Shown here: positions 4,804 to 58,362 of the stretch, in pieces
How the letters are laid out: each line of letters opens with the position of its first letter
Numbering within the stretch: position 1 is the stretch's first letter
DNA from: Nitrospirota bacterium
GTDB lineage: Bacteria > Nitrospirota > JACRHJ01
Assembly (NCBI GenBank): GCA_021789495.1
Contig: JAJYJM010000004.1
Coordinates: 52,841 to 111,202, forward strand
Reading direction: 5' to 3'
DNA length: 58,362 nt
The notes under the pieces: model-generated
The model's input: only the letters and a program-made list of their open reading frames with translations
Told to the model about the DNA's origin: nothing
The model's database searches: none
Position numbers and translations under genes: made by a program

Positions 4804-5529
4804 TTAATCCTCCCCGTTATACTCCGCCATGAGTTTCTGCACGTCCGCCCACACGAGCTTCTTGTCGCCTGGGTTCCGCAGGAGATATGCGGGATGAAAG
4901 GTCGGTATAAGCCTTATCCCCTCGTATTCGCGCCAATTACCGCGTAGCAAGCTTATCGGCTCCTTGGTCTTGAGCAGCGTCTGCGTAGCAAACTTTCCCA
5001 ATGTGCAAATAAATTTTGGAGCTATAAGTTGAAGTTGTTTCTTAAGGAACGGCTCGCAGGCCGCTATCTCGCCTTCTTCGGGATTTCTGTTCTCCGGCGG
5101 GCGGCACTTCACGACGTTTGCGATATATACGCCGCTTCTTTCGAGCTTCATGCCCTTCTCGATTATGTCGGTCAGGAGCTGTCCTGCCCGGCCCACGAAC
5201 GGCTCGCCCTTTATGTCCTCGTCCCGTCCCGGCCCCTCGCCGACAAATACCAGTTTCGCATCGGGATTGCCCGCTCCGAAGACGATATTAGTCCTGCCGT
5301 TGCAGAGCTTGCAGCGTTTGCAGTCCCCGATAAAATCCCGGAGGGCGTCCAGGGTATGAACATCGCCGAGGCCGGGGTATGCTTCACCCCTCTGCTTCAT
5401 TCCCGCCCACCGGAAGCTCTCCGGCCCCCAGATTTCCATCACGCCCGCATCGCGCAGGTATTCGGCATACCCGGCGAGCGGCGCGGCAGGAGAGGCCGGT
5501 TGACCGGCGGCGGTTTTTTTGACCCTCAT
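4804..5529 (-). CDS. Uracil-DNA glycosylase, family 4 (Fe-S type)
   Basis: 241 residues from the chosen start. It removes uracil from DNA. Motif 1 is [12 protein letters not shown] and motif 2 is [16 protein letters not shown] and two further downstream cysteines supply the 4Fe-4S ligands typical of family 4. The ATG at 5529-5527 overlaps the nadK stop as ATGA, so it is preferred to the ATG at 5541, which has no Shine-Dalgarno. The N-terminal 20 residues are Ala/Pro rich and contain the palindrome GCCGGTTGACCGGC (5495-5508) in frame, apparently a repeat inserted in a tolerant extension. It sits between nadK and the HIT gene in a repair-linked operon. Confidence 0.93.
5495..5508. repeat. GCCGGTYGACCGGC palindrome inside the uracil-DNA glycosylase gene
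   Basis: GCCGGTTGACCGGC, a near-perfect 14-bp palindrome followed by GGCGG. It is read in frame within the N-terminal extension of the glycosylase. Family members lie in six other genes (20942, 27326, 34319, 37066, 39888, 57030). Confidence 0.65.
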
Positions 5530-20479: not shown

Positions 20480-21159
20480 GGATTGATTATTATATCCGCC
20501 TTTGACTTCAAATCCCGGAGATAGTCCTCAAGCTTCCGGTTCGTCTCGCGCTCCGTGAGAAGACTTTTTATTGCAGGCTCCGCATCTTCAAATTTTTTTC
20601 CCCCGAAATCCTTTTTATGCCGTTCGTAATATTTCTTCTCCTCGTCGGGTGTTATCCGGACAAAGGCCTTTATCCTCCTGTCAATGTATTTTACCACGAG
20701 AAGCTGGTCCCGAAGGTTATTTTTTAGCTCGCTCTTCGTTATCTCCTCATTGTCGAGCGCCGCCCGGAATGTCTTCTCATCCGGGTACCCGGCCTTTACC
20801 TGTCTATAAGCGTCTTCCACCTCCCCGGGCTTGACGGTCGCAAGATTGAACTTGCGCGCCTCGTCGATGAGGAGCGCCCGGTCTATAAGCGAATCCAGCG
20901 CCTTTTTCCTGGCCGACGCGGCAGAGGCCGATATGCCGACAGCCGGTTTACCGGTTTCGGGCGTCCCTTCGGTCTTCTCGACCTCCACCGCGCGGTCAAC
21001 GTCGCTTTCGGTAATGACATGGTCGTTCACTACCGCCACGACCTTGTCCAGGACATAGGCGGAGCATATTGATATGCCATCTCCCCCGCCCCTCTCCCAT
21101 GGAAGTGCGAGGAATGAAAATATTATTGAAAAAATCAGGATGGCTAAAATCTTTCTCAT
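20476..21159 (-). CDS. SurA N-terminal-domain periplasmic chaperone (no PPIase domain)
   Basis: 227 residues from ATG 21159 (MRKILAILIFSIIFSFLA), preceded by GAAGGA. A much longer open frame upstream overlaps the omp85 end and is not used. After the signal peptide comes VLDKVVAVVNDHVITESDVDRAV, the SurA N-domain hallmark, and a helical C-terminal part. The parvulin domains of E. coli SurA are absent, so this should be a chaperone only. Two repeat-derived stretches are translated: residues around LPWERGGGDG just after the signal helix (21081-21112) and ETGKPAVG (20942-20955). Adjacency to omp85 and tamB supports a role in outer membrane protein delivery. Confidence 0.85.
   Translation of the reverse strand: MRKILAILIFSIIFSFLALPWERGGGDGISICSAYVLDKVVAVVNDHVITESDVDRAVEVEKTEGTPETGKPAVGISASAASARKKALDSLIDRALLIDEARKFNLATVKPGEVEDAYRQVKAGYPDEKTFRAALDNEEITKSELKNNLRDQLLVVKYIDRRIKAFVRITPDEEKKYYERHKKDFGGKKFEDAEPAIKSLLTERETNRKLEDYLRDLKSKADIIINP
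20942..20955. repeat. GCCGGTYKACCGG-type palindrome in the SurA-like gene
   Basis: GCCGGTTTACCGGT, read in frame in a region where SurA N-domains vary in length, between the first helix and SARKKALDSLIDRAL. Confidence 0.5.
21081..21112. repeat. CTCTCCC-type palindromic repeat (partial) in the SurA-like gene
   Basis: CTCCCCC...CCTCTCCCATGGAAGTGCGAGG matches the hairpin-1 half of the copy at 43133-43185. It is read in frame as LPWERGGGDG right after the hydrophobic core of the signal peptide. Confidence 0.55.
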
Positions 21160-36998: not shown

Positions 36999-37823
36999 AT
37001 AAGCATCAGGGTCTGCACACTGGCCTCCGGGAGCAAGGGAAACTGTATATACGTCGAAACCGTGGGCCGGTCCAACGGCAATGCCCGAAGCCGGTCTACC
37101 GGCGGCAGCACGAAAATCCTTGTGGACGCCGGCCTTTCCCTGCGGGAGACCAAGACCAGGCTGAAGGCCATAGGCGTCAGCCCGGAAGAGATCTCCGCCG
37201 TAATAATCAGCCACGACCACCGGGACCACGTCCAGGGCCTGGGCCCGCTCGCGCGCGGCCTGGGCATCCCCGTTTATATCACCGAAAAGACCTGGAAGAT
37301 TGTTCACCCCTGGCAGGGCAACATATGCAGGATAGTCGAGTTCGAGGCCGGGACGGTGTTCGAGGTCGGCGGCATAACCGTCGAGCCTTTTTCAACCCCG
37401 CACGACGCGGCGGACCCCGTAGGCTTCTGCTTTTACGCCGGGAACGTGAAGATGGGCCTGGCGACCGACCTCGGCTATGCGACGGGCCTTGTCACCGAGC
37501 GCCTGAAGGGCTGCAACCTGCTGCTCCTTGAATCCAACCACGACCCTGTCATGCTGAAAGACGGCCCGTATCCCTGGCCGCTCAAGCAGCGCGTCGCCGG
37601 AAAGGAAGGACACCTCTCGAACGAAGACTCCGCGGCTCTCCTCTCCACGCTAATCCACTCAGGGTTGAAAAATGTGACGCTGGCCCACATAAGCCGGACC
37701 AATAACCTGCCCAGGCTTGCATATCAATGCGCAAGGGAAGCACTTGTGCGGTGTTCGTGCGAGGGAGAAATAGGAATAGGCGTGGCGGGGCAGGACAGCG
37801 TCGGCGAGATGATGGAGGGCTAA
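36999..37823 (+). CDS. MBL-fold metallo-hydrolase (YycJ/WalJ family), probable AUA start
   Basis: 274 residues counted from the ATA at 36999. YycJ-family enzymes are metallo-beta-lactamase-fold nucleases. The start VCTLASGSKGNCIYVE is the family signature; the metal site is SHDHRDHVQGLG, with a later ESNHDPVMLKDGPYPWPLKQRV and the C-terminal LAHISRTNN. No ATG, GTG or TTG lies between the probable transcription start (about 36975) and the conserved domain; GGGAGG (36987-36992) is correctly spaced for ATA 36999. About 14 residues (GRSNGNARSRSTGG) between two core strands come from a double palindromic repeat (37066-37103). The stop overlaps that of the convergent regulator gene. Confidence 0.87.
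   Translation: MSIRVCTLASGSKGNCIYVETVGRSNGNARSRSTGGSTKILVDAGLSLRETKTRLKAIGVSPEEISAVIISHDHRDHVQGLGPLARGLGIPVYITEKTWKIVHPWQGNICRIVEFEAGTVFEVGGITVEPFSTPHDAADPVGFCFYAGNVKMGLATDLGYATGLVTERLKGCNLLLLESNHDPVMLKDGPYPWPLKQRVAGKEGHLSNEDSAALLSTLIHSGLKNVTLAHISRTNNLPRLAYQCAREALVRCSCEGEIGIGVAGQDSVGEMMEG
37066..37103. repeat. Two GCCGGT...ACCGGC palindromes inside the MBL hydrolase gene
   Basis: GCCGGTCCAACGGC (37066-37079) and GCCGGTCTACCGGC (37090-37103), ten bases apart. They are translated in frame as a Gly/Ser/Arg insertion where family members have a tight beta-turn. Confidence 0.65.
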
Positions 37824-39131: not shown

Positions 39132-41201
<2,070 letters not shown>

Positions 41202-56298: not shown

Positions 56299-56320
56299 CG
56301 CGATAAATCGCGCCCCTACA
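56299..56320. repeat. CGCGAT-AA-ATCGCG hairpin supplying the stop codon of the GH57 gene
   Basis: On the minus strand TGTAGGGGCGCGATTTATCG: the TAG stop of the GH57 gene (56316-56318) is the TAG of this sequence, followed by a 14-bp palindrome (56299-56312). One copy only in this window. The rest of the 72-base gap to the FG-GAP gene shows only that gene's upstream region. Confidence 0.45.
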
Positions 56321-58362
56321 AACGCCCCTCCTGCCTTCTCTCCAGCTTCAATTTTATCGAAATCTGCACGTCCGCGCCGGGCGGGAGAGTCAGCCGCCAG
56401 ACGGGGACAACGCTCTCGCACTGGAATACCCGTTCGTACCCGGATTCGGACTGCGATACCGTCTCGACCGGGAAACGCCAGAGCGCCGCCTTCTCGCCAA
56501 ACGAAAGCGTCATGGCATACTTCAGCCACTCGTCCACCATCCGGACTTCCTGCACGTTATTGAGTTCTCCCGCGCTTGCGAAGTTATTCGCCTTCAGGGA
56601 GTGTCCCGCTATCTCGAAATACCTGTCCGGGGAGTTCCCGGCAAGGAGCGAGAAATTGAACTCCACGCCGAACGCCGTGTTGATTTCCTCTTTCCCCTCG
56701 TTCCTTAGGACATACCCGGCATTAAACCCGCTCTCTCCGTCTCGAACTGTTACGGTCTTTTTTACGGACACCCTCTGTCCCCGCACCTCTCCCGCGCGGG
56801 ATAGGGCAACGGAAACCTTGTCGCCCGACTTCTTCACCTTCGACGAATACGGCCCGTTTGCAAAACCGCCAGCCTCCCTGTGCGAGGCTTTCCTGAACGC
56901 CTCGAAGTCCATGTCACCTTCCAGGAAGTGGTCTATAAGAGACGCCTTCCTGTACCAGTCGTAGTGCAGGTAGGAGGAAAGCCCTTCTTCCTTCGCGCCA
57001 ACCCTCTCGTGTATCGTCGCCGCGCCGCCGCCGGTCGACCGGTCGCCGCCGGGATTTTCCGCCTGCGCTCCGGCGAGTTTCCTGTGATATGCCTCCGGAC
57101 GCCGGGCGAGCGTGTTCATCATGTTCATGGCTATGGGGCGGTAGTCCAGCTCGTATATCGCGCCGCCCTCGCCGGGGTCTATGAAAACGGCAACGTCCCT
57201 GTTGGCTATCATCACCTCGTCCACGAGGTCGACGTCAAGGTCGGCGGTCTCGACGGAGAAGGATTCACCCTCTCCCCGGCCCTCTCCCGTCGAGGGAGAG
57301 GGGGAAACATTCTTACCCTCACCCCTTAGTGGGAGAGGGTGGGGCGCAGCGCCGGAAGAGGGTTCCGCAGAGCGCCGGGTGGGGGCATCAGCCGCCGCTT
57401 CCGCTTTTATGAGGTGCCGGTAGACCGCGTCCCGAAGGTGCGGGAGATAGAGTCCGCCGAAGACGCCGTGCCAGTATGCGTCGTTGCACTGTCCGCGCCA
57501 GAGGTCGTCGAAAACGCCGTCATCCGCCGATGGGCCATACGCGCGGTGGAGTTTGCCGCTTACCTGCAACATACGCTTGTGCATGGCGTTCGCCTCCGGA
57601 TATTTCGAGAGGAAGTTCCGGAAGAAGCCGCCCTTTACGAACAGCCTTTTTATGTCGTACCCCGGCTGTGTCTTAAGCTCGTTTATGAAGTCCTCATACT
57701 CCGCCGTCGCCGCCGCCGGAAGGGACCACTCCCCCATCTCCATGTATGAGCACGTCGGGAGATATACCCTGCCCCTTGGGCCTTCGGAGTCGATATATTC
57801 GCTGAACGTCGAGGGTTCTATCCAGTCGGAGTTGTCCTCAAGCGCCTTGATGAACCTGCGCATCCAGCCGTCTTCGTATACCCACTTATGAGTTCCCGGC
57901 CAGACGCCGAACTTCTCCCCGTCGTCCGCCATGACGGAGAGGGTCTTCTCACCCGCGTCCGGCATGGCGCGCCAATGCTCAAGCGTTTCTTGAGGCTCCC
58001 TGAACGGAATCGTATATCTTAACCTCTCGCTTCCGGGGAAGACCTTTACCGTCTTTCCCTGCTCCTCGGTTATGAAATAACCTGTAAGCTCGGAGTCCCT
58101 GAGGCCCGACATCTTGAAGTGGAAGTCGTCCACGACGACATATTCCACGCCCGCGTCGTGCAGCGCGGCGGGCAGGTGGGGCTCCCACACCCTCTCGGCA
58201 AGCCATATCCCCCTGGGCCTTTTGCCGAAATGCTCCAGGACGAACTTCGACATCTTCTCTATCTGCCCAAGCTTGTCCTCGTCCGGGAGCAGGGCGAGTA
58301 TAGGCTCGTAGAACCCGCCGCCCATGACCTCCGCCTGCCCCCTCTCGACCATCGAGGCGACC
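56316..58362 (-). CDS. GH57 4-alpha-glucanotransferase with DUF1925/DUF1926 domains (N-terminus cut by right edge)
   Basis: 682 residues visible. The frame continues past the edge, and about 70 residues are missing by comparison with Thermococcus litoralis enzyme spacing. The catalytic Glu is in GIWLAERVWEP and the acid/base Asp 91 residues later in MADDGEKFGVWPG, the spacing of E123/D214 in that enzyme. The DUF1925 linker (QCNDAYWHGVFGGLYLPHLR) and the beta-rich DUF1926 domain follow. It transfers alpha-1,4-glucan chains in glycogen turnover. Two insertions are made of repeat DNA: about 40 residues including PHPLPLRGEG and SPSTGEGRGEGE (57267-57363), and PGGDRSTGGG (57030-57055), both between conserved blocks. 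It complements the branching enzyme at 30951-32687. Confidence 0.92.
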   Translation of the reverse strand, partial: VASMVERGQAEVMGGGFYEPILALLPDEDKLGQIEKMSKFVLEHFGKRPRGIWLAERVWEPHLPAALHDAGVEYVVVDDFHFKMSGLRDSELTGYFITEEQGKTVKVFPGSERLRYTIPFREPQETLEHWRAMPDAGEKTLSVMADDGEKFGVWPGTHKWVYEDGWMRRFIKALEDNSDWIEPSTFSEYIDSEGPRGRVYLPTCSYMEMGEWSLPAAATAEYEDFINELKTQPGYDIKRLFVKGGFFRNFLSKYPEANAMHKRMLQVSGKLHRAYGPSADDGVFDDLWRGQCNDAYWHGVFGGLYLPHLRDAVYRHLIKAEAAADAPTRRSAEPSSGAAPHPLPLRGEGKNVSPSPSTGEGRGEGESFSVETADLDVDLVDEVMIANRDVAVFIDPGEGGAIYELDYRPIAMNMMNTLARRPEAYHRKLAGAQAENPGGDRSTGGGAATIHERVGAKEEGLSSYLHYDWYRKASLIDHFLEGDMDFEAFRKASHREAGGFANGPYSSKVKKSGDKVSVALSRAGEVRGQRVSVKKTVTVRDGESGFNAGYVLRNEGKEEINTAFGVEFNFSLLAGNSPDRYFEIAGHSLKANNFASAGELNNVQEVRMVDEWLKYAMTLSFGEKAALWRFPVETVSQSESGYERVFQCESVVPVWRLTLPPGADVQISIKLKLERRQEGRL
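57030..57055. repeat. GCCGGTCGACCGGT palindrome with GC-rich tail in the GH57 gene
   Basis: GCCGGTCGACCGGT plus CGCCGCCGGG. The first 25 bases match 34328-34352 at the tsf-pyrH junction with about three differences. It is read in frame as PGGDRSTGGG between AYHRKL and TIHERVGAKEEGL. Confidence 0.7.
57267..57363. repeat. Two CTCTCCC-type palindromic cassettes read in frame in the GH57 gene
   Basis: 57267-57304 is a short copy without hairpin 2. 57315-57363 is a full cassette in the orientation opposite to the one before glnB, with ACCCTC...GAGAGGGT, GGCGCAGCGCC and a final GAGGGT. Together they encode about 32 residues at the DUF1925/DUF1926 boundary without a stop codon or frameshift. Confidence 0.75.

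Follow-up and report, generated by a model that had tools for sequence, protein, structure and literature searches.

Rickettsia and Wolbachia offer the best-known examples of palindromic repeats lying in frame within genes, and small populations may account for their spread in these hosts. Such repeats have been described in other bacteria as well (PMC2229807). The Rickettsia palindromic elements (RPEs), which are ~105-146 bp long and have terminal inverted repeats, are found in frame in conserved protein genes (Ogata et al. 2000, reviewed in PMC2229807), and translation and activity have been demonstrated for an RPE-bearing guanylate kinase (PMC2229807). In many bacteria, intragenic REPs tagged with GTAG or CGTC typically encode 20-30 residues (Di Nocera et al. 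2013, PMC3733652). E. coli K-12 MG1655 has 23 copies of a G/C-rich intrastrand triplex motif (TM, ITxF database), all of them intergenic (Holder et al. 2015, PMC4666352). The E. coli TM forms an intrastrand triplex in vitro, and CCCTCTCCCTGTGGGAGAGGGCCGGGGTGAGGGC is an example of a type B TM (PMC4666352). Palindromes of Enterobacter sp. 638 have the pattern CCCTCTCCCXX(X)GGGAGAGGG (PMC2869309). We found no description of a TM in coding sequence in the open-access papers searched.

Here, we analysed a 58,362-nt stretch of DNA (the window) from the 2.08-Mb Nitrospirota assembly G000, together with four congeners (G001 to G004) and a sister genus (G005). All genomes compared are metagenome assemblies, and the named relatives are Nitrospirae metagenome bins. 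We consider it very probable that a dispersed, inverted-dimer palindromic repeat, one unit of which fits the TM, lies in frame in the linker of a GH57 gene of the window and is tolerated there as a disordered loop. The features of the locus are listed below.

56316..58361, minus strand: GH57 4-alpha-glucanotransferase/alpha-amylase gene; open frame of 681 codons and a stop, 5' end missing at the contig end
57030..57043, no strand assigned: second palindrome, a GCCGGTCGACCGGT copy, in frame in a loop of the GH57 protein; enriched in the genus, an insertion relative to G002, pLDDT <50 at residues 436-443
57264..57366, minus strand: composite palindromic repeat of 103 bp with terminal inverted repeats, in frame with the gene; from the sequence, similar builds elsewhere in the genus and the RNA fold
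57268..57302, minus strand: unit with the canonical triplex-motif pattern CCCTCTCCC TCGAC GGGAGAGGG CC GGGGAGAGGG; exact canonical match at G000:C22:110108-110142
57270..57362, minus strand: codons of residues 334-364, a long stretch with pLDDT <50 in the AlphaFold2 model
57303..57314, no strand assigned: spacer separating the two inverted units, from the sequence
57315..57363, plus strand: second, inverted unit, comprising the hairpin ACCCTCACCCCTTAGTGGGAGAGGGT, then a GGCGC..GCGCC stem and the arm GGAAGAGGGT; from the sequence, with other copies likewise arranged
57367..57385, minus strand: further inserted or diverged linker, CACCCGGCGCTCTGCGG on the gene strand, missing in congeners G002 and G004

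The composite palindrome and its family

The initial annotation had placed two repeat units at 57267-57363 within the coding region. Both are present there, inside the 681-codon frame, and read PHPLPLRGEGKNVSPSPSTGEGRGEGE without a stop. They had been described as lying head to tail, which needs correction: judged by the sequence, the other copies in the genus and the RNA fold, the two units are inverted and form one composite. On the plus strand, the composite starts with TTCACCCTCTCCCCGGCCCTCTCCC and finishes with GCGCCGGAAGAGGGTTCC, and its terminal inverted repeats are TTCACCCTCTCCC ... GAAGAGGGTTCC. Folded as RNA, the 103-bp composite (-57.7 kcal/mol, z -3.0) has three hairpins besides an outer stem. 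No known RNA family or tRNA was detected within the window. The linker sequence that follows at 57367-57385 is perhaps a decayed partial repeat unit.

The annotation had missed that one unit fits the triplex-motif family and that inserts of this kind are a genus-wide habit. Positions 57268-57302 match the TM pattern exactly, with CCCTC(T/G)CCC, a short loop, GGGAGAGGG, a short spacer and GGGG(T/A)GAGGG, and the second unit is a TM variant with a longer spacer. The Nitrospirota repeat resembles the TM and the Enterobacter sp. 638 palindromes in having a pyrimidine arm, a short loop, a purine arm, a short spacer and a second purine arm. Inverted pairs are a further shared feature, and an association with a transposase was not found. 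Unlike the TM, the Nitrospirota composite has a build of its own, in which the last purine arm often follows a GGCC or GGCGC stem. It also departs from the intergenic-only location of the E. coli MG1655 TM, which is a habit reported for that motif and no part of its structural definition, both in the window copy and in several other copies that lie in frame inside conserved genes.

The hairpin pattern, allowing up to three mismatches, was matched three times in the window compared to 0.04 expected, and there were 54 hairpins in the G000 genome compared to none with a reversed control pattern. The GH57 repeat units are therefore not a chance occurrence. The hairpin core was present in 34, 59, 21 and 31 copies in the four congeners (59 in G002) and in 102 copies in the sister genus; the reversed control gave 0-3 matches. 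The canonical full motif was found in 35 of 99 Nitrospirota genomes and in none of the controls. About one fifth to one quarter of the examined repeat clusters were internal to genes, a figure that refers to fetched stretches (28 clusters in G000 and 20 in G002) chosen partly by the strict hairpin pattern, with the surrounding genes scored by a simple codon-usage caller that favours in-frame cases. Two degenerate 'internal' matches in the window, at 21091 and 56786, were left out of the insert count. At another locus (L071:2507-2545), the final purine arm GGGAGAGGGTG lies directly 5' of an ATG, where the repeat copy may act as a ribosome binding site, a role that the initial annotation had put forward for other copies.

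The GH57 protein and its linker in relatives

Profile searches of the window GH57 protein returned PF03065, PF09094 and PF09095, all above cut-off. The composite falls between PF09094 (residues 245-322) and PF09095 (374-667), in agreement with its earlier placement at the boundary of DUF1925 and DUF1926. The nearest solved structure is the Thermococcus litoralis 4-alpha-glucanotransferase (1k1x/1k1w). Comparison with the four congeners gave dN/dS values of 0.140-0.165 (about 0.15, n=4 comparisons), and the residues aligned to what we take, from general knowledge of GH57, to be the catalytic Glu and Asp were conserved in all 55 sequences (the window protein and 54 homologues). Because of this constraint and conservation, the gene looks functional rather than decaying.

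A structure prediction had been proposed as a check on whether the insert is a surface loop. The AlphaFold2 model (m1a2957e31b3e) has a mean pLDDT of 88.6, and only two stretches fall below 50: residues 334-364, which are the insert, and residues 436-443, at the second repeat. The low confidence at 334-364 suggests that the insert is best seen as a disordered surface loop. The palindromic repeat thus appears to encode a floppy extra loop of ~34 residues in the predicted GH57 protein. The predicted peptide includes, within residues 331-370, NVSPSPSTGEGR, and we infer that it is translated with the rest of the protein.

Alignment with homologues, another proposed check, supported a clean insertion. 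The site is empty in congeners G002, G003 and G004 and in the sister genus, and the window protein is 34-38 residues longer than those of congeners without the insert. The initial annotation was thus right that the addition causes no stop or frameshift, and its estimate of about 32 residues was too low. The remaining congener, G001, has an in-frame insert in the equivalent linker, which is a diverged pair of palindromes strongly unlike the G000 insert in sequence. The linker measures 50-52 residues only in the window protein and in G001, compared to 10-35 in the remainder of the 55 aligned sequences. The same residues were not seen in distant genera, and the one homologue among the 54 with a comparable linker length is this congener. 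In a species tree built from five concatenated proteins with the inserts removed, G000 grouped with G002 (88/93) and G001 with G003 (100/99). A single insertion shared by G000 and G001 is not supported by this tree. As G000 and G001 are not sister species, the insert was probably either gained more than once (two gains) or gained once and lost several times.

Two GH57 homologues from other, more distantly related Nitrospirota (L100 and L116) have other, Gly/Lys-rich expansions in the equivalent linker. These suggest that the site is tolerant of length change in general.

Inserts in other genes and a second palindrome family

In-frame TM inserts were also found in rsmG, murQ, fmt, mutL and a TMEM260-like gene of G000 and in moeA, kdsA, rsmD and a queE-like gene of G002 (Pfam or NCBIfam assignments). 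The repeat thus seems to have entered at least nine other conserved genes of the genus without breaking them. Orthologue alignments were made for four of these. The inserts in murQ and moeA are clean, each in a single species. In kdsA, G002 has a dimer, G000 and G004 each have a short remnant, and G003 and G005 have no insert. In fmt, the insert is full in G000, a larger array in G001, a short remnant in G002 and G003, and absent from G004 and G005. The G001 array, in the methionyl-tRNA formyltransferase orthologue (L178, L182), is in frame and reads VSPSPLTSEGKILSPSPLTSEGKIPSPSPLRGGRGEG. In several other genes, the repeat supplies the final codons. In two species, a copy runs over the end of what seems, from its similar length and position, to be the same gene (L055:2526-2584 and L082:2550-2614), and the repeat-encoded last codons of this gene in G000 give the tail PSPPSPLPVAGEG.

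In its behaviour the repeat resembles RPEs, as the initial annotation had proposed for an intergenic-type palindrome in frame in a gene. The four-congener comparison, the functional signature of the gene, the predicted disorder and the nine other genes all support that likeness. The composite is 103 bp long, compared to about 100 for RPEs, has terminal inverted repeats, and its family lies both in frame in unrelated conserved genes and between genes. In contrast to RPEs, the host is a Nitrospirota, apparently free-living, and the translation of the insert is a prediction from sequence. The repeat would work like an RPE while probably being another sequence family, and we compare the two by description rather than filing it as an RPE. 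The GTAG- and CGTC-tagged REPs likewise occur as short palindromes and inverted dimers within genes, whereas the window element, on inspection of its sequence, ends without a GTAG or CGTC tag, and no REP-associated tyrosine transposase (RAYT) was found in G000. In-frame palindromes are hence of a known kind. What sets the present case apart is its lineage, a repeat family that had been reported to be intergenic, and close relatives in which empty, full and trimmed states can be compared.

The search for a mobilising or autonomous element covered Y1_Tnp. The sole Y1_Tnp in G000 is of the IS200 type (score 107.6, cut-off 55) and scores below the cut-off for RAYT (25.3, cut-off 80). It has no flanking repeat and is absent from repeat-rich congeners; G002, with 59 hairpins, has no Y1_Tnp. 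A REP-associated transposase was thus rejected as the mover. No target-site duplication was seen by eye at the moeA, murQ and kdsA junctions.

The GH57 protein had also been said to contain an insertion from a second repeat family at 57030, which was borne out. The palindrome GCCGGTCGACCGGC, at up to two mismatches, has 212 copies in G000 compared to 37 for the reversed control, and the 57030 copy is a short in-frame insertion relative to G002. Enrichment over the reversed control is ~3-6-fold in all five species of the genus and is not seen in the sister genus (74 compared to 146 for the control). At up to one mismatch, all nine copies in the window and the fetched G000 stretches lie within predicted genes. 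The copies examined (window 5495-5508, 37066-37103, 39888-39901 and 57030-57043; L059:83; L064:742, 1237 and 1553; L072:2221) are all inside predicted genes, many of them in loops of variable length. The copies in ligA (39888) and in a metallo-beta-lactamase-fold gene (37066-37103), names that we presume from the translations, are at loops of variable length among congeners, as is a copy in the gene beside fmt, read as rsmB. GCCGGTCGACCGGC might be an iterated palindrome of the HIP1 kind, or else a short repeat that is coding.

Tolerated insertion and its significance

We propose that a repeat copy entered the GH57 gene in frame, at the linker of the helical DUF1925 and the beta-sandwich DUF1926. 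The arms of the repeat carry few stop codons in most frames and encode a similar Pro/Ser/Gly/Glu-rich peptide on either strand. In the translations, PSP or PLP is followed by GEG or GRG whichever strand is read, because the repeat is palindromic. As the repeat is poor in stops and its peptide similar from both strands, in-frame insertions into loops may be tolerated: one that keeps the frame in a surface loop would add a disordered segment and persist, and those that break the frame or the fold would presumably be purged by selection. Units would afterwards be gained, lost or trimmed at these permissive sites. Unusual openness of the repeat was rejected as the whole explanation, since 3.3 of 6 frames are open in the dimers, a modest excess over random window stretches (2.9) and shuffles (2.3).

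An alternative is that selection favours the added linker segment, which might for instance be a flexible spacer by which domain motion or oligomerisation is tuned. The in-frame insert at the same linker in the non-sister congener G001 and the in-frame kdsA remnant that species have in common would both fit such a role. We regard it as unlikely, as the sister species G002 lacks the insert, as do G003 and G004, the G000 and G001 sequences differ strongly, and unrelated proteins receive inserts. That the protein lacks the element because it is lost during expression, whether by excision from the RNA, by protein splicing or by a ribosome that bypasses it, is very improbable. The RNA of the element does fold strongly (z -3.0), and its closed structure with several branches might be expected of a hairpin that is skipped. 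However, the inserts found in conserved genes are all in frame and free of stops, which removal or bypass would make needless; this is suggestive, given that the caller favours in-frame cases. Moreover, no split genes were found at tight intergenic copies, where the ten flanking proteins tested have complete or near-complete Pfam domains with one exception cut by a contig end. Decay or misassembly of the GH57 gene, with a frame open by luck, is likewise very improbable even though the contig ends inside the gene ~1 kb upstream of the insert, given the purifying selection and conserved catalytic residues, the confident model for the rest of the protein, and comparable inserts in independent assemblies and genes.

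Tolerated in-frame insertion draws on what the analysis shows of the repeat family and its copy number, its in-frame position, the empty congener sites, its recurrence, the conserved gene function and the predicted disorder. That tolerance is the cause of its position we infer, as we do the manner of movement and the physical formation of a triplex.

Conserved genes of an uncultured lineage, apparently a free-living one, thus contain a repeat that had been described as intergenic and associated with genome instability. Its presence in empty, full and trimmed states among orthologues offers a natural comparison for how non-coding repeats turn into protein. The proteins with inserts can serve as test cases, with activity measurable in the presence and absence of the insert, and annotators gain a concrete source of low-complexity PSP/GEG-type segments. 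More tentatively, the genus may harbour two unrelated protein-coding palindrome families, the triplex-type dimer and the short GCCGGTCGACCGGC, which would relocate or arise anew within coding sequence and lengthen or shorten by whole in-frame units at the same loops (fmt, kdsA and GH57). If so, both families would continually supply a free-living bacterium with disordered protein segments.
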